From Nitrososphaerales archaeon TH703 (lineage in GTDB: Archaea; Thermoproteota; Nitrososphaeria; Nitrososphaerales; Nitrososphaeraceae), in assembly GCA_014523525.1 (NCBI GenBank), contig JAATVL010000013.1:1-10441 (forward strand): 10,441 nt of DNA, given 5' to 3'. Each line of letters starts with the position of its first letter. Position 1 is the stretch's first letter. Below, piece after piece: positions 1 to 10,441 of this stretch. A program made the translations under genes and the position numbers. The notes under the pieces were generated by a model, which had not been told where the DNA came from, did no database searches, and was given only the letters and a program-made list of their open reading frames with translations.

Positions 1-2
1 GT

Positions 3-1340
3 ACCAACATTAAGAAATTTACTTATTATAATATCGTAGATTTTCCAGAAGAAAAGGAAGGTAAAGCCCCAACAAAAGCAATACCAAAAAGTTTGCTCCA
101 AGATTTTCTTAAAATCTTAGGGAGGGAAATTCTGAAAGAAGATCAGCCGAAACTCGAAGAAATTGAACAGGAATTACAGAATTTGAAGAAAGAAAAAGAA
201 AAAGAAAATAGCGAAAGCCAATCAGTTGAACCTGAGTCCTTTAATAAAACATCGTCAATAATTGCCCAACTCCAACAATCAGGGTATATCAAAGATTCAA
301 GAAAATGGCTGAGCAAAAAGGGGTTTTTTGCAGTAGGAATGAGATTGTTAGAAGATGTAATTAGAGCCCTTAATAAGGGGGCCATTGGACTGCATGAGAC
401 AACTTTTAGCGGAAGTGGTTCCTTAAATTTAGATTCTACAAAAAAATACGAACCACCTGACGATCTAAGACTGATTAATGTCCCAAGATCCTTATTAAAT
501 GCCATCGAAAGAAGATCTGGTTCTAAATCATCTATCCAATTACCGATTGAATTACAACCCGATGATTTGGAAGTTTACGAAACAAAGAGAGACGTAAGTG
601 TTGCCGTTGTTTATTGTATTGATTTGAGTTCTACAATGAGATATTCAACTATGTTTGGTGATATGAGTAGAATTGAAGCAGCAAAAAAAGCATTATGGAG
701 CTTGTTCTTGTTGAATCAAAAATTTTTCCCTTCAGACTCAATCTATATTGTAGGGTTTGGGGCATTGGCTTCAAAGGTGACACCATATGATATACCATAT
801 TTGAAAACTTTTGAATCTGGTGTAGGGTTTATGCACTATACAAACTACCAAGCCGCGTTTAGACTAGCAAAGAAGATTCTTCAAAATGAAACTACGAATA
901 ACAAAAAGATAGTTCTTATAACAGATGGTCATCCTAGTGCCTGTTTTATTGACACGGAACAAGAACGAAGTAAAATCCTAAGTGAAAGACCTTATTCCCA
1001 ATTTTATGCTCCGGACAAAGAATCGATAACTTCAGTAAAAGAAAAACAGGAATTATCACTTGATACTAAGTCAGGGAAATTAGTTTATCTTTGTTATAGA
1101 TACAGACAGGTAGATCAATACATCGGTGAAAAAACCATTTTAGAAGCAAAAAAATGTCATAAATCAGGTATTGATATCGATACAATCATGGTGAGTGAGG
1201 AAGACTCGCTGTTGAGTTATGTAAATGAATTAGAAAAATATGTCAAGGGAAGATCTTATTATATCAATCCAGCCGAGATAGATAAGATTCTCATTACAGA
1301 TTATCTGAATGACAAAAAATCTATATTAAGGTCGAAATGA
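3..1340 (+). CDS. VWA-domain protein (5' partial), MIDAS-containing partner of an AAA+ ATPase
   Basis: The reading frame is open from the first bases of the window, so the true start lies upstream. The first possible start, TTG at 93, has no ribosome site, and residues before it continue without a stop. 445 residues are visible (numbered from the codon at 3). Residues about 44-69 are a Lys/Glu-rich probable coiled coil. The VWA domain begins near 195. Its metal site (MIDAS) is nearly canonical: D207-L-S-S-T211, T280 in HYTNYQAA, and D308 in ITDGHPS. The stretches DLRLINVPRSLLNAI (154-168) and PDDLEVYETK (186-195), and the ending SGIDIDTIMV...LITDYL, match from memory a bacterial VWA family found beside Mg-chelatase-like ATPases. 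About 50 residues after ITDGHPS look inserted relative to that family. It is probably a cytosolic adaptor, as no signal peptide or membrane segment is visible in the part present. The gene lies 53 bp before the AAA+ gene. Its client is unknown. Confidence 0.85.
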   Translation, partial: TNIKKFTYYNIVDFPEEKEGKAPTKAIPKSLLQDFLKILGREILKEDQPKLEEIEQELQNLKKEKEKENSESQSVEPESFNKTSSIIAQLQQSGYIKDSRKWLSKKGFFAVGMRLLEDVIRALNKGAIGLHETTFSGSGSLNLDSTKKYEPPDDLRLINVPRSLLNAIERRSGSKSSIQLPIELQPDDLEVYETKRDVSVAVVYCIDLSSTMRYSTMFGDMSRIEAAKKALWSLFLLNQKFFPSDSIYIVGFGALASKVTPYDIPYLKTFESGVGFMHYTNYQAAFRLAKKILQNETTNNKKIVLITDGHPSACFIDTEQERSKILSERPYSQFYAPDKESITSVKEKQELSLDTKSGKLVYLCYRYRQVDQYIGEKTILEAKKCHKSGIDIDTIMVSEEDSLLSYVNELEKYVKGRSYYINPAEIDKILITDYLNDKKSILRSK

Positions 1341-1360
1341 GAAATGAGAACAACAATTAG

Positions 1361-1370
1361 TTTTTATTTA
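1361..1370 (+). promoter_or_regulatory. possible TATA box for the AAA+/VWA pair
   Basis: TTTTTATTTA is centred about 28 bp before the ATG at 1394. If it is used, transcription would begin at or next to the start codon, giving a leaderless mRNA as is common in archaea. The gene could equally be transcribed through from the VWA gene upstream. This is weak evidence in AT-rich DNA. Confidence 0.3.
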
Positions 1371-1393
1371 CATGTTCTAAAAATAAATAATGA

Positions 1394-2203
1394 ATGACAA
1401 TAGACCCTTCGGACTCGAATTATTTTGATTGGAATAATTCGTTCAGTGTAATTAAGAAAGCATATGATTCGTCACTTTTTGTACTTATAATAGGACCAAA
1501 AGGAACTGGGAAAACTAGTTTGGTTAGGAAATTTGCTTCTGAGATTGGAAAGACACTTTATTCAATTAATTTTAGTTTAAGAACTCGTGAATCACATCTA
1601 GTTGGAACCAAAACGATGAATCAAGGTGAAGTTACATTTGTTGAAGGTATATTGATCAAATCCATGAGAGATGGTGGAATTCTATATTTGGACGAACTCA
1701 ATGCGGCAGAAGCTGATGTACTGTTGCGTCTGGATGAAGCTCTTGATGATAGAAGACAGATTGTACTGAAGGAAGCTGAAGGCCAAGTAATAAAGGCAGT
1801 GGAGAATTGGTTTGTATTTGCTACAATCAATCCACTATCTCATGAAGGAACCAAGGAATTACCACCACAAATATTGAGCAGATTTCCTGTTAGACTAAGA
1901 CTCGAATATCCACCGAAAGAAATTGAGAAGCAGATTATCAAACAACATGTAGATTTTGATGCTTCCAACGAAAATGAAATAGACAATGCACTAAAACTAG
2001 CAAATAGTCTAAGAGAAGCTGCCTCCTTAGAAGAGCTATACTACAGTCCTAGTATACGAGAATCCATAGCATTTGCAAAGTTGTTAAGAAATCAAGTATC
2101 CCCAAAGAAAGCTGCTGAAGTAGTATATGCAAATGTTTACGATCAGTGGGGAGAAGTAGAATTTAGAAAGGTAATGGACATGATAACGTCTATTTTTGTG
2201 TGA
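1394..2203 (+). CDS. AAA+ ATPase, MoxR/CobS/NorQ/CbbQ type
   Basis: The protein has 269 residues, the usual size for a single-domain NorQ/CobS-like ATPase. Visible motifs are Walker A GPKGTGKT (34-41), Walker B ILYLDE (96-101, with D100 and E101), sensor 1 in ATINP (N146), a candidate arginine finger R163 in ILSRF, and a sensor-2-type Arg (R222) in SPSIRESI. The stretch DELNAAEADVLLRLDEALDD is typical of the CobS/NorQ/GvpN branch of MoxR ATPases. Members form hexameric rings that remodel or metallate a client through a VWA partner, and here such partners lie on both sides. The start is ATG 1394. The ATG at 1390 is out of frame and soon stops. The downstream VWA gene begins 4 bp after this stop, so the two are almost certainly co-translated. 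The family call is firm, but the client cannot be read from the sequence. Confidence 0.93.
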   Translation: MTIDPSDSNYFDWNNSFSVIKKAYDSSLFVLIIGPKGTGKTSLVRKFASEIGKTLYSINFSLRTRESHLVGTKTMNQGEVTFVEGILIKSMRDGGILYLDELNAAEADVLLRLDEALDDRRQIVLKEAEGQVIKAVENWFVFATINPLSHEGTKELPPQILSRFPVRLRLEYPPKEIEKQIIKQHVDFDASNENEIDNALKLANSLREAASLEELYYSPSIRESIAFAKLLRNQVSPKKAAEVVYANVYDQWGEVEFRKVMDMITSIFV

Positions 2204-2207
2204 TAAG

Positions 2208-3788
2208 ATGTCCTTCTCTTATGTACAAAATTTTTCTTTAAGAAATGATATCCTGATAAATCTAGGAACGTTTCTTTCTAGAAGATGGTCCGGAAATAAA
2301 AAAGCAACTATTTTACTCATAGAAGATAAACCGCCTACGACTAAACTAGATAAAAATACTATCACCATGCCTTCATTAAGATACTATAATGGAACAGAAT
2401 TTCAAAAATATCGTCAGTGGCGTGTTTCGTTATGGTATGAATCGATGCGATTAGCACTTTCAACAAAAGCTCTAAGCAATGATCATGCCTTTGGATTTAT
2501 TTTAAACTCAATAGAATTGAAGAGGATAGAAATTTTAGGACTAAGAGAATGGAGAGGTATGGAAAATGAAGTAATATTCAATGAAGGAATTTCATGGTTA
2601 TCACGCCCTTTACTTAATTCATTATATGGGAAGCATAAGATTGTGGAGGCATTCTCTCAATACCTTATTACAGGTTATGTAAAGGGCGAACTGTTTGGTT
2701 CAGAATCAGATCGGGTTCAGAGTGCTGTTAACTTTGCCAGAGAATTGATTGATGAATCAATAGAAGAAAATCACAGAACCGAATGGATAGAGCGGCAAAT
2801 ACCTAAAATAATTAAGATTCTTCAAATCGATTCTCTTTTCACTATCCCAATTGTTACTCTTAAGAGTAAAATTGGATTATCGATGACAGAAAAAAATTTA
2901 ATAAAAGAAATAGAAAGGATGATAAAAATTAGAAATAAAGAAAAGGAAAAATCCACTAATGACATTATGGCTGGTACCCAGATATTAAGGGAATATGAAA
3001 GTCTTGTAAAGGAGAGTAAGAAAATAGATAACAAAGGTTATTCAACAATGGAACAATTTGGATTGGAGGTTCCCGAGAGCGTCGATTTAGACGAAAGTGT
3101 AATTTATGATAATGATTTGATTACAAAGTTAAAATCGGTCATTAGGTCTTGGAAAAGAGACTGGAGAGAAATCCATGACATAACCGGTGACGAGATTGAC
3201 ATAGAATCCGTAATAGAATCGCAGCCAAAACCATTTCTCACGGATTTTAAAAATACTATAAATACCAAAATAGCGCTATTATTAGATCATTCTAGCAGCA
3301 TAGACGATTACGAATTAGAGTACAAGAAGGCAACAGTTGCCCTTTGTGAAGCTTTAAAATTTTTGGATGTAAAATTTTCTGCTTATGCGTTTAGTACCAA
3401 AAACAAGAAAGTTACGTGTTGGGTAATTAAACATCCGGATGTTAAATGGACTTCTATAAATGCACGTAATTTGGTCCAAATTAAGGCAAGTGGTGGAACA
3501 CCTCTTGCAGAAATTTATAATTTATTGTTACCATTAATGAAGATATATAAACCCGATATAATGATAACATTAACCGATGGAGAACCTTCTGACTACAATG
3601 CAGTTCGATCTGCAATCAAAACTTACAAAATGAATGGAATTCACATGGTTGCTGTAGGCGTAGGCAAAACTGTAAATAATGCTATCAATATTGGCTTGAA
3701 TCTAAAATACCTAGAGTACGAAAGGATTCTGGTTGTTAGTCAACTTAATGAAATCCCAACAAGAGTTCTTTCGCTTTTACAAGTTTGA
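2208..3788 (+). CDS. protein with C-terminal VWA domain, CobT/NorD/ViaA-like layout
   Basis: The protein has 526 residues from ATG 2208. A TTG at 2196 would add four residues, but the ATG is preferred: GTGAT at 2200-2204 can pair with the archaeal 16S 3' end. A long helical N-terminal part (about 1-330) precedes a VWA domain (about 350-526) whose metal site is complete: D360-H-S-S-S364, T431 in GGTPLAE, and D457 in TDGEPS. Residues 236-252 are strongly charged (KIRNKEKEKS). The N-terminal stretch with WRVSLWYES and LNSIELKRIE faintly recalls the N-terminal region of CobT/NorD proteins. This is a memory-based resemblance, not an alignment. Together with the ATPase 4 bp upstream it forms a CobS-CobT or NorQ-NorD type pair. 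It is likely cytosolic, as no membrane segment is evident. It differs strongly from the first VWA protein, so the pair is not a recent duplication. Confidence 0.85.
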   Translation: MSFSYVQNFSLRNDILINLGTFLSRRWSGNKKATILLIEDKPPTTKLDKNTITMPSLRYYNGTEFQKYRQWRVSLWYESMRLALSTKALSNDHAFGFILNSIELKRIEILGLREWRGMENEVIFNEGISWLSRPLLNSLYGKHKIVEAFSQYLITGYVKGELFGSESDRVQSAVNFARELIDESIEENHRTEWIERQIPKIIKILQIDSLFTIPIVTLKSKIGLSMTEKNLIKEIERMIKIRNKEKEKSTNDIMAGTQILREYESLVKESKKIDNKGYSTMEQFGLEVPESVDLDESVIYDNDLITKLKSVIRSWKRDWREIHDITGDEIDIESVIESQPKPFLTDFKNTINTKIALLLDHSSSIDDYELEYKKATVALCEALKFLDVKFSAYAFSTKNKKVTCWVIKHPDVKWTSINARNLVQIKASGGTPLAEIYNLLLPLMKIYKPDIMITLTDGEPSDYNAVRSAIKTYKMNGIHMVAVGVGKTVNNAINIGLNLKYLEYERILVVSQLNEIPTRVLSLLQV

Positions 3789-3813
3789 TCGTGCTGATGT
3801 TGGCACAGGCTTA

Positions 3814-3840
3814 CTTATTCTAAAAATATGGAAAATAAAT
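3814..3840 (-). terminator. possible T-rich terminator of the pentose phosphate operon
   Basis: Read on the - strand, just past the transaldolase stop, the sequence has two T-rich patches (TTTATTTT and ATATTTTTAG). Archaeal RNA polymerase often terminates at such runs without a hairpin. The 52-bp gap separates two convergent transcription units, so termination in both directions is needed near here. No clear hairpin is visible. Confidence 0.3.
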
Positions 3841-4503
3841 CTAGATTTTATATTTGTGTTCTTTCTTGACTTTTTCCCAATCTGAAAGAAATAGAGATAA
3901 TCCTTTATCAGTAAGGGGATGAGCTAGCATTTTACCCAATATATCTGGTGGAAGTGTAACTATATGTGCGCCTATCCTTCCTGCTTCAATAACGTGAATG
4001 GGATGCCTCACACTAGCGACCAAAACTTCTGATTGATAATCATAATTCTTAAAAATCTGAACTATTTCTCTAATAACAGCCATTCCTTCCTGACCAGCGT
4101 CATCAAGTCTTCCTATAAAAGGACTAACATAGGATGCTCCTGCCTTTGCAGCCAGCAATGCTTGATTTGACGAAAAGATCAAGGTCACATTTGACTTTAT
4201 TTTATCTTCACAAAGTTTTCTTACTGCTTTTAACCCATCCATCGTCATGGGAACTTTTACAACAACATTATCCCCAAATTTTTTCAATCGTAATCCCTCT
4301 TCAATCATTTCTTCAGTTTTTGTTGCGACAACCTCCAAATTTACTGGGCCTTTTACAATTCTTACAATCTCTCTCATTATATCTTCTGGGTGCCCTTTTT
4401 CTTTTGAAATAAGAGTAGGATTTGTTGTAATCCCATCAACCACGCCCATATCAGCAAATTTCTTGATAGACTCGATACTCGCAGTATCAAGAAAAATTTT
4501 CAT
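3841..4503 (-). CDS. tal: transaldolase, short TalC / fructose-6-phosphate aldolase family
   Basis: The 220-residue protein has the length typical of the TalC/FSA family. It transfers a dihydroxyacetone unit between sugar phosphates (sedoheptulose-7-P + glyceraldehyde-3-P to erythrose-4-P + fructose-6-P). The Schiff-base lysine is K83 in VVVKVPMT; D6 in FLDTAS and N28 in TTNPTLI are also conserved. Two positions separate transaldolases from the E. coli FSA aldolase. Here position 57 (EVVAT) is Glu where FSA has Gln, and F129 (SPFIGRLDD) replaces the FSA Tyr. Both favour true transaldolase activity. The start ATG overlaps the stop of the upstream transketolase gene in ATGA (4 bp), which implies translational coupling. 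It is the last gene of the operon. Confidence 0.95.
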   Translation of the reverse strand: MKIFLDTASIESIKKFADMGVVDGITTNPTLISKEKGHPEDIMREIVRIVKGPVNLEVVATKTEEMIEEGLRLKKFGDNVVVKVPMTMDGLKAVRKLCEDKIKSNVTLIFSSNQALLAAKAGASYVSPFIGRLDDAGQEGMAVIREIVQIFKNYDYQSEVLVASVRHPIHVIEAGRIGAHIVTLPPDILGKMLAHPLTDKGLSLFLSDWEKVKKEHKYKI

Positions 4504-5474
4504 TTCTTTATCTTTTTCCTCGTCTTAAGAACAGATTCTACTATATGATCCGAGCATAGACCATATTTACTCAAAAGTGATTCTATTTCCGTTTCCCGAG
4601 CGGATTCACCAAAAATATCTGTTACACCCATTCTATTTACAGGAACAGGATGATTTTCGGCCGTTACTTCACAGACAGCACTCCCTAGGCCTCCTATAAT
4701 GCTGTGTTCTTCAATAGTAACAATTGCCCCAGTATCTATTGCTGCCTGATATACATGCTCTACATCGATTGGTTTAATAGAATACATATCTATCACTCTG
4801 CAAGAGACATCGTATTCCTGTTCAAGTGTTTGTGCCGCATCGATCGCTTTTGAAACCATTAGACCACATGCAATTACAGTTATATCAGAACCGTCTTTAA
4901 TAACGTTACTCTTTCCAATATCGAATTGGTCAAAATTATCTTCGTATGTATTGGAATTTGATGGACGTGCAAGACGCATGAAAAAGGGCCCAGGCGTATA
5001 ACTTAGAGTGGGAATCAAATTTTTTACAGCTATTGAATCTGAAGGAACAAGTACCCTCATGTTTGGAATTGTTCGCATTGTAGATATGTCCTCAATTTGT
5101 TGATGAGATGCACCATCCGGACCAACAGTAAGTCCAGCGTGTGATACTACAAGTTTTACGTCGAGGAATGGATAACAGATAGTATTTCTAATCTGATCAA
5201 GACACCTGCCAGGTAAAAATGCAGCGTACGTACTTGCGAAAACCACCTTACCCGCAATAGCCAATCCAGCAGCTATTGAAACAAGATTTGCCTCTGCTAT
5301 TCCAACATTGTATAATCTATTAGGGAATTTATCACCGAATAGCTTTGTTTTGAGTGAATCAGTAGTATCTGCTCCAACACAGACAATATTTGAGTCCTTC
5401 GATCCTAGTTCGATTAATGCTTTCCCATAAGCAGTTCGCATATCAGAAATAACGTTCTTATCACTTAATTGCAT
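4500..5474 (-). CDS. transketolase, C-terminal subunit (pyrimidine-binding and C-terminal domains)
   Basis: The 324-residue protein is the second half of a split transketolase, which moves a two-carbon ketol group between sugar phosphates. The catalytic Glu that activates the ThDP pyrimidine ring is E61 in NVGIAEANL. H112 in SHAGLTVGPDG and H124 in SHQQIED are conserved. GGLGSAV marks the C-terminal domain. It has no ThDP-pyrophosphate motif of its own and needs the N-terminal subunit encoded just upstream. I place the start at ATG 5474 because GAGGAGGA lies 5 nt before it. A TTG at 5495 would add seven residues and lie upstream of that site. The gene overlaps the preceding one by 14 bp and the following transaldolase by 4 bp. 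The closest alternative, a DXS-type or 2-oxoacid dehydrogenase beta subunit, fits the neighbours less well. Confidence 0.95.
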   Translation of the reverse strand: MQLSDKNVISDMRTAYGKALIELGSKDSNIVCVGADTTDSLKTKLFGDKFPNRLYNVGIAEANLVSIAAGLAIAGKVVFASTYAAFLPGRCLDQIRNTICYPFLDVKLVVSHAGLTVGPDGASHQQIEDISTMRTIPNMRVLVPSDSIAVKNLIPTLSYTPGPFFMRLARPSNSNTYEDNFDQFDIGKSNVIKDGSDITVIACGLMVSKAIDAAQTLEQEYDVSCRVIDMYSIKPIDVEHVYQAAIDTGAIVTIEEHSIIGGLGSAVCEVTAENHPVPVNRMGVTDIFGESARETEIESLLSKYGLCSDHIVESVLKTRKKIKK

Positions 5475-7101
5475 GGAGATCCTCCTCAATTCCAAGCTCC
5501 TTTGCCAAAGGTATTAGCATATTTTTACGTGATTTTATCCAATCAGATCTCATGTCATTTATAGTTGCCAATTCTACTAATTTTGTTTCAATCGCCACAT
5601 TAGCCTTATGTCTTAATTGTATAATATTTGAGTTGATATCTGGTGAGCCATATACTGCATTGCCTGCTACCATAATTCTAGCCCCTGCATCAAAAACTTG
5701 TTGAAGGGTGTTTGCATCTATACCTCCATCAGCTTCTATGAATCCTTTATAGTTGTTACTTTTCAATATCTTGACTATTCTGGCCATTTTATCCAATGAA
5801 TCTGGAATAAATTTTTGACCAGCAAAACCAGGATTCACTGACATAATTATCATAACATCAATATTATTAAGGTGTCCAATGAGCCATGATGGAAACGGAG
5901 TTCCTGGATTTATAGCAATTCCAGGACTGATACCAGCTTTTAGTAGCATTTTATTAATATCCACAAATTCCCTTTCATTGCACGCTTCAACATGAACTGT
6001 AATAATATCACAACCAGCATTTATGTAATCTTTTACGTGATTGATTGGTTTTTCGATCATCAAATGAGCATCAAATGGAATACTGGAGATTTTTCTCAAG
6101 TGTTTAATAGTATCTGCAAAAAATGAAGTGCTGGGTACAAATTTACCATCCATTATGTCTAAGTGAATAAGATCTGCGCCGGCACGTTCTGCTCTTCTTA
6201 CTTTTTCTTCATAATTCTCAGGCTCTCCTGCAATTATAGAGGGTGCTATCAAAATTTCGCTTTGAAGTTCTTCCAACAAAATTGGGGTGTGTTTTTTTGC
6301 AGGAGCTTTGCCATGCCATTGTGGATTATTCGCCATATGCTTAATTCCCTTGCCCTTAGTTGTATATGCGATAATTATTGATGGCTTATCTTCTACTTTT
6401 TCAATTCTACTTAAGGCATCTATAATCTGTTCTATTTTATGTCCATTTACCTCTACTACATTCCAATTAAATGCAGCCCATTTGTCTCTAACAGGGTCCA
6501 GAGGCATTATCTCTTCTGTAAAACCATCCTGTTGAATCTTGTTTCTATCTAGGATAGCTACAAGATTGTCTAGCTTGAACTTTGAAGCAGCCATTGCAGC
6601 TTCCCATATTTGTCCCTCATTTGATTCACCATCACCGATTAAAGTATATACTCTATTTTTTCCCCCATCTCTTTTCTTTGCGAGTGCAATTCCTATTGAT
6701 ACAGATAAACCAATTCCTTCGGACCCACCAGAATATTCTATACCTGGAAAGCTGTGATTTTTTTGTCGCTCCGAATATCTAACTGGATGTCCTTGAAGAC
6801 GCGAACCAAGCTTTCTTAGTGTTTTTATTTCCTTAGTATCGATATATCCAGCAATAGCCAAAACTGCATAGAAGCCGGGTGCAGAATGTGCTTTTGAATT
6901 AATAAAATAGTCTCTTTCTTCCCATAATGGATCACTAGGTCTATGTTTCAATTTATGAAAATATAGAACCCCCATAATTTCTGCAGCTGAAAAAGATGCT
7001 CCAGGATGTCCCGAACCTGCTTCAGCGATTCCTTGAATCGCCAACATTCTTACATCCCTTATTTTCCGATTGAGCTCAAGGTATCTCATTTTTAGTGCCA
7101 T
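5461..7101 (-). CDS. fusion of transketolase N-terminal subunit and ribulose-phosphate 3-epimerase
   Basis: The 546-residue protein carries two enzymes in one uninterrupted frame. Residues 1-270 are the ThDP-pyrophosphate half of transketolase: GSGHPG (29-34), SKAH (69-72), GDG at 156-158 ending at N187, and WHGKAP (262-267). Residues about 282-500 are a ribulose-phosphate 3-epimerase barrel with the full metal set, H313 and D315 in IHLDIMDG, H346 in DAHLM and D458 in EADGGID, plus S288 in IAPSI and VNPGFAGQ (422-429). The epimerase makes xylulose-5-P, the donor used by transketolase, so channelling is plausible but inferred. The last 46 residues are unassigned. The start is ATG 7101, because a TAA directly precedes it in frame; ATG 7089 is a possible alternative. 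No nearby frameshift or strong internal start suggests two separate proteins. Confidence 0.93.
   Translation of the reverse strand: MALKMRYLELNRKIRDVRMLAIQGIAEAGSGHPGASFSAAEIMGVLYFHKLKHRPSDPLWEERDYFINSKAHSAPGFYAVLAIAGYIDTKEIKTLRKLGSRLQGHPVRYSERQKNHSFPGIEYSGGSEGIGLSVSIGIALAKKRDGGKNRVYTLIGDGESNEGQIWEAAMAASKFKLDNLVAILDRNKIQQDGFTEEIMPLDPVRDKWAAFNWNVVEVNGHKIEQIIDALSRIEKVEDKPSIIIAYTTKGKGIKHMANNPQWHGKAPAKKHTPILLEELQSEILIAPSIIAGEPENYEEKVRRAERAGADLIHLDIMDGKFVPSTSFFADTIKHLRKISSIPFDAHLMIEKPINHVKDYINAGCDIITVHVEACNEREFVDINKMLLKAGISPGIAINPGTPFPSWLIGHLNNIDVMIIMSVNPGFAGQKFIPDSLDKMARIVKILKSNNYKGFIEADGGIDANTLQQVFDAGARIMVAGNAVYGSPDINSNIIQLRHKANVAIETKLVELATINDMRSDWIKSRKNMLIPLAKELGIEEDLHAIK
5480..5487 (-). promoter_or_regulatory. 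strong ribosome binding site for the transketolase C-terminal subunit
   Basis: Read on the - strand, GAGGAGGA is followed by TCTCC and then ATG (5474). It matches the archaeal anti-Shine-Dalgarno sequence well and decides the start. It lies inside the last codons of the upstream fusion gene (Glu-Glu-Asp), so ribosomes ending the fusion protein are close to where this subunit begins. Confidence 0.85.
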
Positions 7102-7164
7102 TTAGATACCCCAAATAGAACCCAGGAACACCATCATTGGATATTTATTGTAATAAGATTGTAC

Positions 7165-7172
7165 GATAAAAA
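7165..7172 (-). promoter_or_regulatory. candidate TATA box of the pentose phosphate operon
   Basis: On the - strand TTTTTATC lies about 64-71 bp before ATG 7101, predicting a transcript start near 7142 and a leader of about 40 nt. An alternative ATAAATATC lies at about 7140-7149 and would give a shorter leader. Neither is decisive. A GGGGT run about 10 nt before the ATG may be a weak ribosome site. Confidence 0.3.
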
Positions 7173-7308
7173 CATATGTAATTGTCACTTTAAGTTTTCT
7201 AATTACGTTCTCATGACTTCATAAAATGTGTGGATGTTTATTATGTAATTTATTAGTCAAAAAAGGCAATCAAAATTAGTGATATTCTCAAAATACACAC
7301 GTAAGGTC

Positions 7309-7315
7309 TATAAAA
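7309..7315 (+). promoter_or_regulatory. candidate TATA box of the pyruvate oxidase-like gene
   Basis: TATAAAA lies 55-61 bp before ATG 7370, so transcription would start near 7339 and leave a leader of about 30 nt. No purine-rich ribosome site is seen before the ATG. Confidence 0.4.
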
Positions 7316-7369
7316 TCTCGAAAATTGGACGCATTTAGATTTATTAGAAATAAGAACCAATAATAGCAT

Positions 7370-9193
7370 ATGAGTGAATATGAGGATCTAAAAACTGGAG
7401 ACATAGTGGCTGAAGCACTCATTGATTGGAAGGTTGATGTTGTTTTTGGTATTCCTGGAGATAGCATCAACGGGTTTATAGAAGCCCTAAGGGTAAGAAA
7501 AGACAAAATCAAATTCGTGCTTGTAAGACATGAGGAGTCTGCCGCCTTGATGGCATGTGGATATGCAAAATATACCGGAAAGCTTGGTGTATGCACGGCG
7601 ACAGCAGGTCCAGGTGCAATACATCTTTTGAACGGATTGTATGATGCTAAGGCCGATAACACTCCTCTAATTGTTATTACGGGAGGAACATCGACTGATT
7701 TAATGAATTCAAGTTTTCAACAGGATATAAATTTATTACAACTTTTCTCTGATGTTTCAGTTTACAACAGCATAATAGGATCACCGCAACAGGCGGAAAT
7801 GGCTGTAGACATTGCATGTAGAACCGCAAATGTTCGTAAAGGAGTTAGTCATCTTAACATACCGACTGACGTACAGGAACAAAAACTAGAGGGTCATTAT
7901 TCACGACACAAAGTCCCAGGCCATACGTCTGATATCTTTGTAACGCCAACATCTGCTGATAGAAAATTAATTGAAAAAACTGCTGAAATTCTTAACAATG
8001 GAAAAAAAATTGTAATCCTAGTTGGTCAAGGTGCCTTGAATGCCTCAGAAGAAGTCATATGCGTAGCAGAGAAACTAAATGCTCCGATAATAAAAGCAAT
8101 GTTAGGCAAAGCCGTTGTTCCTGACGATCATCCTTATAGCTTGGGTGGTATCGGTTTTTTGGGAACAGAGCCTTCGAGTGACGCTATGGCTGAAAGTGAT
8201 ACGCTTTTCATGGTAGGAACATCTTTTCCTTACATAGAATATCTTCCCAAGCCAGGACAGGCCGTAGGTATTCAAATTGATATAAAACCAGAAAAAATTG
8301 GATTAAGATATCCAGTTAAAATTGGTTTAATAGGCGATTCCAAACTAGTGTTATCAGAGTTAATTCCGTTACTGCATGATAGAAGAACTCCGGGCAGAAA
8401 CGATGACCCAAGTGTGGAATTTCTAAAATCAAAACAATATGCTATGAAGAAATGGAATGAAGTATTAAAGGAACAGAGTAGTCGTGTTGATGAACCCATA
8501 AAGCCCCAAGTAATCGCTGCTGCAGTATCAGATGTGTTAGACGATAACACAATAATATCAGTAGATAGTGGAATTAATACTTGCTGGGCCGCAAGATTTT
8601 TAAAAATAAAAAATGGTATGAAGTTCTCAGGATCGGGATCACTTGCAACAATGGGATGCGCAGTACCGTATGCCATTGCCGCCAAGATTGCATATCCAGA
8701 CAGACAGAGCATTGCATTTGTTGGAGATGGTGGATTTACAATGCTTATGAGTGAATTTGCAACGGCTGTTCAATATCATCTTCCTATTAAAGTGATAATA
8801 CTGAATAACAAAATTTTGGGAATGATAAGATGGGAACAAATGGCTTTTCTTGGTAACCCAGAATATGGGATAGAATTTTCACCTATTGATTTTGTCAAAA
8901 TTGCTGAGGCATGTGGTGGAAAGGGATTTTCGATTACAAAAATAGAAGAGGTAAAACCGGTTATTCATGAGGCTATAATGGAAGACAAAGTACCTGTTAT
9001 AGTCGATGCTCATGTAGATCCATTTGAAGCACCATTACCTCCAAAAATCAGTATGGAATTTGTTAGAAATATTGCAAAGGCGTTTGCAAAAGGACAACCA
9101 TATGCAAAAGAAATTGGCCTTACTTTATCAATAGATCAGTTGCATGAAAAATTAAGGCGTTTGCATTCGCATAAACAAGAAAGTTCAAACTAG
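7370..9193 (+). CDS. ThDP-dependent enzyme of the pyruvate oxidase / acetolactate synthase superfamily
   Basis: The 607-residue protein has the three-domain POX/AHAS layout. The N-terminal pyrimidine-binding domain carries the ThDP-activating Glu in RHEES (E55). A central domain (about 195-335) contains GTSFPYIEYLPKPGQA (283-298) and QIDIKPEKIGLRYP, a hallmark of the pyruvate-oxidase-like subgroup rather than acetolactate synthase. The C-terminal domain has the ThDP-pyrophosphate motif from GDGG (452-455) to NN (479-480). The closest function is pyruvate oxidase or pyruvate:quinone oxidoreductase, oxidative decarboxylation of pyruvate with FAD, but substrate and acceptor cannot be fixed from sequence. 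The end is mildly longer than E. coli PoxB, and whether its tail binds membrane lipid is unclear. No small regulatory subunit gene follows, which argues against acetolactate synthase. Being divergent from the transketolase operon, it may share regulatory DNA with it. Confidence 0.85.
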   Translation: MSEYEDLKTGDIVAEALIDWKVDVVFGIPGDSINGFIEALRVRKDKIKFVLVRHEESAALMACGYAKYTGKLGVCTATAGPGAIHLLNGLYDAKADNTPLIVITGGTSTDLMNSSFQQDINLLQLFSDVSVYNSIIGSPQQAEMAVDIACRTANVRKGVSHLNIPTDVQEQKLEGHYSRHKVPGHTSDIFVTPTSADRKLIEKTAEILNNGKKIVILVGQGALNASEEVICVAEKLNAPIIKAMLGKAVVPDDHPYSLGGIGFLGTEPSSDAMAESDTLFMVGTSFPYIEYLPKPGQAVGIQIDIKPEKIGLRYPVKIGLIGDSKLVLSELIPLLHDRRTPGRNDDPSVEFLKSKQYAMKKWNEVLKEQSSRVDEPIKPQVIAAAVSDVLDDNTIISVDSGINTCWAARFLKIKNGMKFSGSGSLATMGCAVPYAIAAKIAYPDRQSIAFVGDGGFTMLMSEFATAVQYHLPIKVIILNNKILGMIRWEQMAFLGNPEYGIEFSPIDFVKIAEACGGKGFSITKIEEVKPVIHEAIMEDKVPVIVDAHVDPFEAPLPPKISMEFVRNIAKAFAKGQPYAKEIGLTLSIDQLHEKLRRLHSHKQESSN

Positions 9194-9326
9194 TTTAATA
9201 ATAGAGTCAAGTTTACAAGGTTAGGTAGTCATTCGCAAGAGTCAATATTTGTTATCTCATCTTTAACCTGAATTCTAAATTGAAAAATCATTACCTTGGA
9301 ATGATGTCAATGATGATACACCTGGA

Positions 9327-9400
9327 AGCCTTGGCCGGGATTTGGACCCGGGACCTTTGCCTTACCAAGGCAACGCTCTACCAGGCTGAGCTACCAAGGC
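9327..9400 (-). tRNA. tRNA-Thr (anticodon GGT)
   Basis: Read from 9400 down to 9327, the sequence folds into a full cloverleaf. The acceptor stem is GCCTTGG/CCAAGGC, the D stem GCTC/GAGC, the anticodon stem TTGCC/GGCAA with loop TTGGTAA, the variable loop has 5 nt, and the T stem is CCGGG/CCCGG with loop TCCAAAT. The anticodon GGT (9364-9366) reads ACC and ACU. The discriminator base is U, as expected for archaeal tRNA-Thr. There is no intron and no encoded CCA (TCC follows). Confidence 0.96.
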
Positions 9401-9433
9401 ATCTTGAAAACAAGACATAGAACAATAGTAGGG

Positions 9434-9442
9434 TTTTATATT
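9434..9442 (-). promoter_or_regulatory. TATA box of the tRNA-Thr gene
   Basis: On the - strand AATATAAAA lies 34-42 bp before the first tRNA base, predicting a transcript start near 9412 and a leader of about 12 nt. That spacing is good for an archaeal tRNA promoter. A palindromic GTATATAC at 9443-9450 just upstream is a second possible TBP site. Confidence 0.5.
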
Positions 9443-9503
9443 GTATATACTTAAGAAAAAAAAGAGCAAAAAGTAAGAATGAGTATGACTCTAGTGTAGA
9501 TAA

Positions 9504-9513
9504 TTATATAAAT
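9504..9513 (+). promoter_or_regulatory. TATA box of the UDP-sugar dehydrogenase gene
   Basis: TTATATAAAT is a near-consensus archaeal TATA box. Transcription would begin around 9534-9538, leaving 14-18 nt before the proposed CTG start at 9552. With the tRNA TATA box it defines a divergent promoter pair in the 151-bp gap 9401-9551. Confidence 0.5.
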
Positions 9514-9551
9514 ACTATTAATTATTCCCCATCTTACAGAGTGATTTCGGA

Positions 9552-10441
9552 CTGAGCAGGATAAGTATTATTGGTTCTGGTGTTGTAGGGAGCGCGACTG
9601 GGCAAGGGTTTCACAAACTGGGCCATAAAGTTATTTTTTACGACATTTCAAAACAAAAACTTAAAGCTTTAAAGAATGATGGATATAATGTAGCAAATAA
9701 TTTAAGTCAAGCACTCTCGCAAACTGACGTATCGTTTGTTTGTGTGAATACTCCAACCCATAATTCCGAACAAGATCTGTCTCAAATATTTTCCGTATTA
9801 CAACAGATAACTGAGTTTCTCAATACAGCACAAAAACAACATCTATTTGTCTTCCGGAGCACAATTTTGCCTGGGACAATGCGTAATGTAATTGTAAATT
9901 ATCTTGAAAAAAATTGTATAACAAAGAGAGGAATTGACTATGATGTTGTTTACAACCCAGAATTCCTGAGACAAAATACATCATACGATGATTTCTTCAA
10001 ACCAGATAGGGTAATAATAGGTGAAGATCATGCTCAGTTATCCAAAATTTTAGTAGAGATATACAAACCATTAACTAAAAATATAATTGTTACATCTTTT
10101 GAGGCTGCAGAGCTAATTAAATACGCATCAAATTGCTTTTTGTCATTGAAGATTTCGTTTTTTAACGAAATAGGTTTGATATGCCAACATCTTGGAATAG
10201 ATCACAAGGTCGTAAGTTTGGGGGTATCTTTAGATAAAAGAATTGGAAAGTATGGCACCGAATTTGGCAGACCATTTGATGGAATGTGTTTACCTAAAGA
10301 CACTCAGGCATTAGCTTCATTCATAAAACAAAACAGAATTGAACCTGACTTATTGGAAATAGCGTTAAATATAAACAAGAAAATCGAAGATCTGACTAGT
10401 GCTAGTCAGCTAGTTTCAGACTCTAAGGAAACTTATTCTTA
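9552..10441 (+). CDS. UDP-glucose/UDP-ManNAc-type 6-dehydrogenase (3' partial)
   Basis: 296 residues are visible before the window ends, where only the TA of the next codon is present. NAD-dependent UDP-sugar 6-dehydrogenases oxidise the sugar C6 to a uronate for surface polysaccharide or glycoprotein glycans. The NAD-binding motif is GSGVVG (8-13) with acidic D31 after the second strand. The active site is present: E137 in NPEFLR, K190 and N194 in LIKYASN, and the catalytic C246 in GMCLPKD. The central dimerisation helix follows (KISFFNEIG). The third, UDP-binding domain is not reached, so full length is unknown. There is no ATG, GTG or TTG in frame after the stop at 9519. CTG 9552 gives MSRISIIGSGVVG, a natural N-terminus for the family, and GTGAT lies 6 nt upstream. 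ATA at 9561 is an alternative. The sugar substrate cannot be told. Confidence 0.9.
   Translation, partial: MSRISIIGSGVVGSATGQGFHKLGHKVIFYDISKQKLKALKNDGYNVANNLSQALSQTDVSFVCVNTPTHNSEQDLSQIFSVLQQITEFLNTAQKQHLFVFRSTILPGTMRNVIVNYLEKNCITKRGIDYDVVYNPEFLRQNTSYDDFFKPDRVIIGEDHAQLSKILVEIYKPLTKNIIVTSFEAAELIKYASNCFLSLKISFFNEIGLICQHLGIDHKVVSLGVSLDKRIGKYGTEFGRPFDGMCLPKDTQALASFIKQNRIEPDLLEIALNINKKIEDLTSASQLVSDSKETYS

Follow-up and report, generated by a model that had tools for sequence, protein, structure and literature searches.

A transketolase half fused to ribulose-phosphate 3-epimerase in ammonia-oxidising archaea: a probable bifunctional subunit of a split transketolase

Introduction

Two described systems are closest to the gene that is analysed here. 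According to excerpts of PMC11237513 (Padalko, Nair and Sousa 2024), a fusion of the Tkt N-terminus to Rpe (cluster 341.1) is present in 73 of 98 Thaumarchaeota assemblies, and a complete non-oxidative pathway was inferred for this group. The split transketolase of Carboxydothermus hydrogenoformans works as an alpha2beta2 complex, as stated in excerpts of PMC7661550. We analysed a gene of the fused type in a stretch of 10,441 nucleotides (nt) from Nitrososphaerales archaeon TH703 (GCA_014523525.1, contig JAATVL010000013.1, positions 1-10,441), which is called the window throughout. The gene joins the PP half of transketolase, which binds thiamine diphosphate (ThDP) and is abbreviated TKN, to ribulose-phosphate 3-epimerase (RPE); TKC stands for the Pyr plus C-terminal half of transketolase and TAL for transaldolase. 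A preliminary description of the window had presented this layout as undescribed, while the TKN-RPE fusion itself is already known.

We assign a probability of about 0.65 to the view that the gene encodes a bifunctional one-chain subunit, which would form a split transketolase together with TKC, carry a working RPE, act in the flow from hexoses to pentoses and have been fused from operon neighbours. This view builds on the observed frame, its domains and catalytic residues, the gene order, the conservation across the clade and the unfused relatives; from these we infer activity, the complex, the direction of flow and any kinetic benefit.

Results

One open frame encodes a transketolase half and an epimerase

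The fusion gene is a single open frame (Table 1). PF00456 matched residues 12-266 of its product (E = 1.3e-48) and PF00834 matched residues 285-484 (E = 6.7e-56; 189.3 bits against a gathering score of 21.1). This bore out the earlier claim that one frame holds both domains, and the residues cited for it (G156-D157-G158, N187, H313, D315, H346 and D458) were found where they had been placed. The chain carries the GDG...N ThDP motif of a split-gene transketolase without a Pyr domain. Its score for the full-length transketolase equivalog NF004559 was 279.4 bits at a cut-off of 488, the fusion carrying half of that protein only. The best solved match of the TKN half was 6yak (2.7e-70, residues 14-280), which is the N-terminal component of a split-chain transketolase. 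All four metal ligands of RPE are present in the C-terminal half, two of which we take to be the acid/base aspartates, and the NCBIfam model NF004076 for an RPE subfamily was exceeded (213.5 bits, cut-off 165). Since the match to 6yak stops at residue 280 and solved epimerases align from residue 280-281 onward, the junction between the two domains is very short.

The fused frame is kept in two families

The class sample comprised 400 genomes, 346 of them with a match; 59 of these belong to the family of the window (f1) and 209 to a sister family (f2), which would be the Nitrosopumilaceae, judging by a fused locus of that name (L137). All counts are genomes with a match, taken from rows among the matches listed; most of the genomes are drafts, and related species do not count as independent cases. 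The junction at about residue 281 lay inside a single open frame in 58 of 59 matching genomes of f1 and in 200 of 209 of f2, together 258 of 268. This number includes five f2 genomes in which the frame is otherwise fragmented or the match is in two pieces, and five genomes in which a stop is marked close to an end of the match (G364, G190, G028, G216, G377). Two of the latter were inspected (L171, L172), and the frame was open across the junction in both. The ten genomes without an intact junction consisted of eight fragments (five or more of them visibly at the end of a contig), a frame disrupted inside a contig (G396), and G168, which has one piece cut by a contig end and a second operon copy that lacks RPE. 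The whole frame was kept in seven genomes of the same genus (93%-95% identity) and in an eighth genome (81%). Identity to genomes outside the genus was at most 75% in the class sample.

The window is one contig of a draft assembly of 309 contigs, which would favour an assembly artefact or a missed stop codon, and a stop overlooked between the two domains had been named in the preliminary description as an observation that would overturn it. The same frame recurs across many independent assemblies, some of them complete, and was also seen in the single-contig genomes G070, G093, G100, G109, G132 and G136. We therefore rejected an artefact, the chance of which is negligible, and with the junction open in the genomes counted above no such stop came to light.

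In a phylum sample of 398 genomes, matches spanning from TKN to RPE occurred only in f1 and f2 among the matches listed in order of E-value. The named archaeal proteins among the best 120 matches were mostly from Nitrososphaeraceae, in agreement with a thaumarchaeal host. A plasmid origin was rejected: among the plasmid matches listed none was fused, and in the six records with at least 80% coverage of the query (H1-H6) the match is split in two, the parts being annotated as separate tkt and rpe genes in the five records with annotation. TKN of most f2 rows has an insertion of 18 residues after about residue 202 in window numbering (for example L072; shorter in L066), and this insertion is absent from the f1 and unfused rows shown in the alignment.

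Both active sites are conserved and the junction is under purifying selection

Conservation was followed in 173 fused rows, made up of the window, 52 locus frames chosen without a motif filter and 120 database proteins; 171 of the rows are distinct, and many are close relatives. The 21 inspected positions were unchanged in all rows except for M420L in L061 and an altered H32 in L027, which lies upstream of a stop in a frame from a draft assembly. The four metal ligands of RPE were unchanged in 173 of 173 rows. Because the catalytic residues are near-invariant, we rejected a dead domain, and the earlier statement that the active sites of both domains are intact was upheld.

The ratio of nonsynonymous to synonymous differences (pN/pS) among nine sequences of the same genus was 0.060 for TKN, 0.075 for the junction, 0.096 for RPE and 0.083 for the tail (residues 497-536), with synonymous differences of 0.57-0.67 per site being close to saturated. 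Purifying selection on the junction codons is strong, as it is on the domains. This selection running through the junction argues against a chain that is cleaved, or an epimerase that is also made from an internal start, in which case the working enzymes would be separate. An ATG exactly at the old RPE start was present in 14 of the 50 fused sequences that gave a pattern (12 of the 14 from f2; 3 of 53 loci gave none) and looks left over from a separate gene. One of these sequences (L063) also has a ribosome-site-like match, and the codon at this position is TTG, a possible start, in the window and in six of seven rows of the same genus. Against this, no ATG is found there in the window or its genus, and the ribosome-site-like match occurs in only 1 of 50 sequences. 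With these numbers a general internal start at the epimerase was not supported, and we consider separate working enzymes very improbable.

The C-terminal tail, which is probably helical, gave no Pfam match up to E = 10. Alignments revealed the pattern LL..A..LG....W......K..L..A.EL, the outline of which is common to both fused families. The tail was absent from 12 of 12 unfused epimerases whose ends were read, and this difference hints at an added function.

We checked 18 genomes of f1 and f2 for further copies. The fusion was the only strong RPE match in all 18 (174-200 bits). An additional weak match of 18-24 bits occurred in six of them and exceeded the Pfam cut-off of 21.1 in four. TKC of the fusion operon was the only strong match to PF02780 in these genomes, further matches being weak (20-38 bits) and, but for one, located in frames of 638-666 amino acids. 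Some f2 genomes harbor a second split transketolase, TKN-TKC without an epimerase (L185, L186 and L167 in G087, G229 and G168, respectively). This may be an enzyme of another kind or, in the case of G168, a contaminant.

The partner half is encoded by the next gene

The preliminary description had expected the other half of the transketolase to be supplied in trans, and TKC is indeed the next gene. The Pyr and C-terminal half is thus encoded separately, and the TKC of the window is the only strong PF02780 match in genome G000. The TKC start overlaps the end of the fusion gene by 14 nt; the list of open reading frames instead gives a TTG start at 5495. For the TAL/FSA family protein that follows, the model TIGR00875, named fructose-6-phosphate aldolase, was above its cut-off. 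The protein has a glutamate at E57, which presumably marks a transaldolase rather than an aldolase. The order fusion-TKC-TAL was also found in five of five other fused operons read with their flanks (L171-L174, L176) and in four fused named records (L107, L110, L137, L163), of which L107 and L110 are apparently the same contigs as L025 and L024.

Table 1. Features of the window and of one locus with the opposite fusion order
Feature	Position	Strand	Details
TKN-RPE fusion gene	5461..7101	-	single open frame, 546 amino acids; ATG at 7101, TGA ending 5461
TKN, residues 1-280	6262..7101	-	GDG 156-158...N187; H32, H72, H105, H263
RPE barrel, residues 281-497	5611..6261	-	metal ligands H313, D315, H346, D458
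C-terminal tail, residues 498-546	5464..5610	-	beyond both domains, no Pfam match
TKC	4500..5474	-	324 amino acids; PF02779 + PF02780; likely ATG 5474, read from sequence
GAGGAGG, ribosome-binding-site-like, for TKC	5481..5487	-	inside the end of the fusion gene, read directly
TAL/FSA family protein	3841..4503	-	220 amino acids; PF00923, 2.3e-61; start overlaps TKC stop by 4 nt
RPE-TKN fusion in L183	2684-4297	-	TKC and TAL after it
VWA protein, AAA ATPase (AAA_5, MoxR-like), second VWA protein	93-3788	+	beside the sugar operon
ThDP enzyme	7370-9193	+	607 amino acids; divergently oriented from the fusion operon
tRNA-Thr (GGT)	9327-9400	-	
UDP-glucose/GDP-mannose dehydrogenase frame	9744-10441	+	

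The pathway genes suggest a flow from hexoses to pentoses

We tested the pathway gene set in 23 genomes, 18 fused (f1/f2) and 5 unfused. RpiA was present in all of them. 6-phosphogluconate dehydrogenase (6PGDH) was found in a single one, the fused genome G109, with two partial matches, one of which has an internal stop; none was found in the other 22. 3-Hexulose-6-phosphate synthase (HPS) was over its cut-off in 0 of 23 genomes. HPS-like genes (170 bits, cut-off 200) were seen in only two genomes, both from f3 (G067, C1:239317-239940; G077, C11:49880-50500). Since the 6PGDH and HPS routes are missing in the genomes checked, pentoses would be made from fructose-6-phosphate and glyceraldehyde-3-phosphate. 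Most likely, xylulose-5-phosphate is the product of the transketolase, and the fused epimerase is its consumer towards ribose-5-phosphate. In G109 a distance of about 1.6 kb separates the stop-broken 6PGDH-like match (C1:480917-481360) from another match to RpiA, the second in this genome (482936-483430); the two are possibly a leftover oxidative-pathway cluster.

The preliminary description had proposed the opposite direction, with the epimerase making xylulose-5-phosphate and passing it on as the ketol donor for the transketolase, in a flow from pentoses to hexoses. Both reactions are reversible, as is well established, and xylulose-5-phosphate is truly a ketol donor of transketolase. Moreover, most metagenome-assembled genomes from one soil study have genes for a sugar-uptake system (excerpts of PMC11131427). 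The same excerpts link transketolase expression in soil ammonia-oxidising archaea to the gluconeogenic fructose 1,6-bisphosphate aldolase/phosphatase, which speaks for gluconeogenesis and against this direction, as do the lack of 6PGDH in the 18 fused genomes apart from the broken matches and the low scores for HPS. The proposed direction is probably to be reversed, and a pentose-to-hexose role of the fusion is unlikely.

Unfused relatives have the two genes side by side

No fusion was seen in families f3, f4, f5 and f12 (46 matching genomes), which had separate matches in different frames, a stop-broken match, or fragments. All 13 unfused loci that were read at the junction, 12 from these four families plus L182, whose family lies outside the class, had a stop there, and the epimerase was in the same frame as TKN in 5 of the 13 loci read directly. 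In six unfused relatives TKN and RPE are in one frame with one or two stops between them. In the nearer unfused families TKN, RPE and TKC are consecutive genes that either overlap or are spaced by no more than a few tens of bases. For each of f7, f21 and f22, one genome showed TKC immediately after TKN.

The 21 fused rows formed one clade in the TKN tree (65 rows, SH-aLRT 99) as well as in the RPE tree (53 rows, SH-aLRT 98). As this clade stands beside the neighbour-gene rows in the TKN tree and inside them in the RPE tree, a single in-frame fusion in the ancestor shared by f1 and f2 would be the simplest account. It probably arose by loss of the stop between adjoining TKN and RPE genes of a TKN-RPE-TKC operon.

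With both genes already in one frame in the six relatives, fusion is mechanically easy. Together with the short junction this favours a by-product of the operon, in which the domains would be independent and joining would ensure only equal enzyme amounts, with no channelling or kinetic pull. The retention of the fusion in nearly all matching genomes of two families (258 of 268) speaks against a mere by-product, as does the tail that was seen in fused and not in 12 unfused epimerases. The same pair was fused again in the opposite order (see below); this suggests that joining is favoured, but it does little to tell the explanations apart. We regard the by-product explanation as a serious rival with a chance short of even.

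The same enzymes are also fused in the opposite order

Genomes G671 and G666 of family f25, which belongs to the same phylum and lies outside the class, have one frame of 537 or 539 amino acids with RPE first and TKN second. TKC and TAL follow it in both L183 and L187, and in G671 a gene resembling phosphoribosyl pyrophosphate (PRPP) synthase lies upstream on the same strand. With this RPE-TKN protein as query, the best 120 matches included 44 proteins with at least 98% coverage and at least 79% identity, and a second set at 39%-53% identity that includes P0231, named Patescibacteria. Pfam coordinates confirmed the RPE-first order in L183 and nine returned proteins, the epimerase match of P0231 being the weakest (2.9e-15).

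A common origin of the two fusion orders was rejected in the TKN tree (p-AU 1.3e-92). The RPE tree alone, in which long branches meet at this point, does not reject it (p-AU 0.065). The RPE-TKN rows themselves need two changes in both trees. No mention of the RPE-TKN order was found in the excerpts of PMC11237513 or in the open-licence literature searched.

Other genes in the window

The best NCBIfam model for the divergently oriented ThDP enzyme was pyruvate oxidase NF006377 (638 bits, below the cut-off of 742). In the dehydrogenase frame the NAD-binding profile matched only from position 85; the N-terminal portion is absent or lies in a different frame, and the contig end also cuts the frame. 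The remaining neighbours are listed in Table 1.

Discussion

We propose that the TKN half pairs with the separately encoded TKC to give a split transketolase, most likely alpha2beta2, and that the C-terminal half acts as a working metal-dependent RPE. In these autotrophic, sugar-making archaea the pathway set would run from fructose-6-phosphate and glyceraldehyde-3-phosphate to pentoses. The transketolase, aided by the adjacent TAL, would make xylulose-5-phosphate, which the tethered RPE would convert to ribulose-5-phosphate and RpiA further to ribose-5-phosphate. By holding the producing and the removing step close together and in a fixed ratio, the fusion may pull the near-equilibrium transketolase reaction.

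Several points weigh against this proposal. Evidence for the fusion at the level of protein, activity or complex was not found in the literature listings searched. The RPE equivalog model TIGR01163 of NCBIfam was missed by 1.1 bits (211.5 vs 212.6). A few f2 genomes outside the 18 that were checked, G087, G229 and G168 among them, have a second TKN match. Separate TKN and RPE proteins suffice in related families, and the fusion is therefore not required for the pathway. The argument for the direction builds on missing genes, with the window genome 88% complete and the relatives near-complete, and the search behind it did not extend to glucose-6-phosphate dehydrogenase, RpiB and hexuloisomerase.

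Ammonia-oxidising archaea are abundant autotrophs. The 18 genomes checked probably have no epimerase other than that of the fusion and no transketolase other than the one to which it gives a half, so that ribose synthesis in these archaea likely passes through it. The public names of the fusion proteins are either transketolase or ribulose-phosphate 3-epimerase, and such single-enzyme names hide one of the two steps. The two fusion orders represent a natural experiment on whether joining consecutive enzymes changes flux, for which the relatives with both genes in one frame and a stop between them are ready-made controls.

Fusion of TKN and RPE may have happened two or more times in distant lineages and with the order reversed: as TKN-RPE in ammonia-oxidising archaea, and as RPE-TKN both in Patescibacteria and in an archaeal family that lies outside the class. 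In every case the cells would make pentoses by the reversed non-oxidative pathway; the direction of the pathway was examined for the TKN-RPE genomes. It is a tentative and rather doubtful idea that this convergence reflects a two-enzyme machine, which would remove xylulose-5-phosphate at the transketolase site and dock onto the partner chain with the help of the tail.

Comparison with known systems

The RPE-TKN proteins (L183 and L187 of f25, P0124, P0231) resemble the window fusion in joining the same two enzymes and, in L183 and L187, in being followed by TKC and TAL. They differ in the leading position of RPE, a central stretch whose length varies, a different TKN subtype and, according to the TKN tree, a separate origin. 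The split transketolase of Carboxydothermus (6yak) has its PP and Pyr plus C-terminal halves on separate chains without a PP-Pyr linker, as in the window. Unlike the window protein it has no epimerase attached, and its His-tagged chains are 31.0 and 33.2 kDa (excerpts of PMC7661550). The RPE of the window corresponds to solved epimerases of PF00834 (for example 2fli and 1rpx) over the whole domain and in the four metal ligands, whereas those are free proteins of about 220-250 amino acids and the RPE of the window is fused and bears a tail.

Domain order and host group are shared with cluster 341.1, and the window protein appears to be a typical representative of this conserved thaumarchaeal Tkt-N/Rpe fusion. 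The excerpts of PMC11237513 report the presence of the cluster; its active sites, operon, tail and direction are not among their subjects, nor are unfused intermediates or the fusion in the opposite order. To this known fusion our analysis adds the operon, the stepwise unfused relatives, the status as only copy in the genomes checked, the tail, the likely direction of flow and the fusion of the same enzymes in the opposite order.

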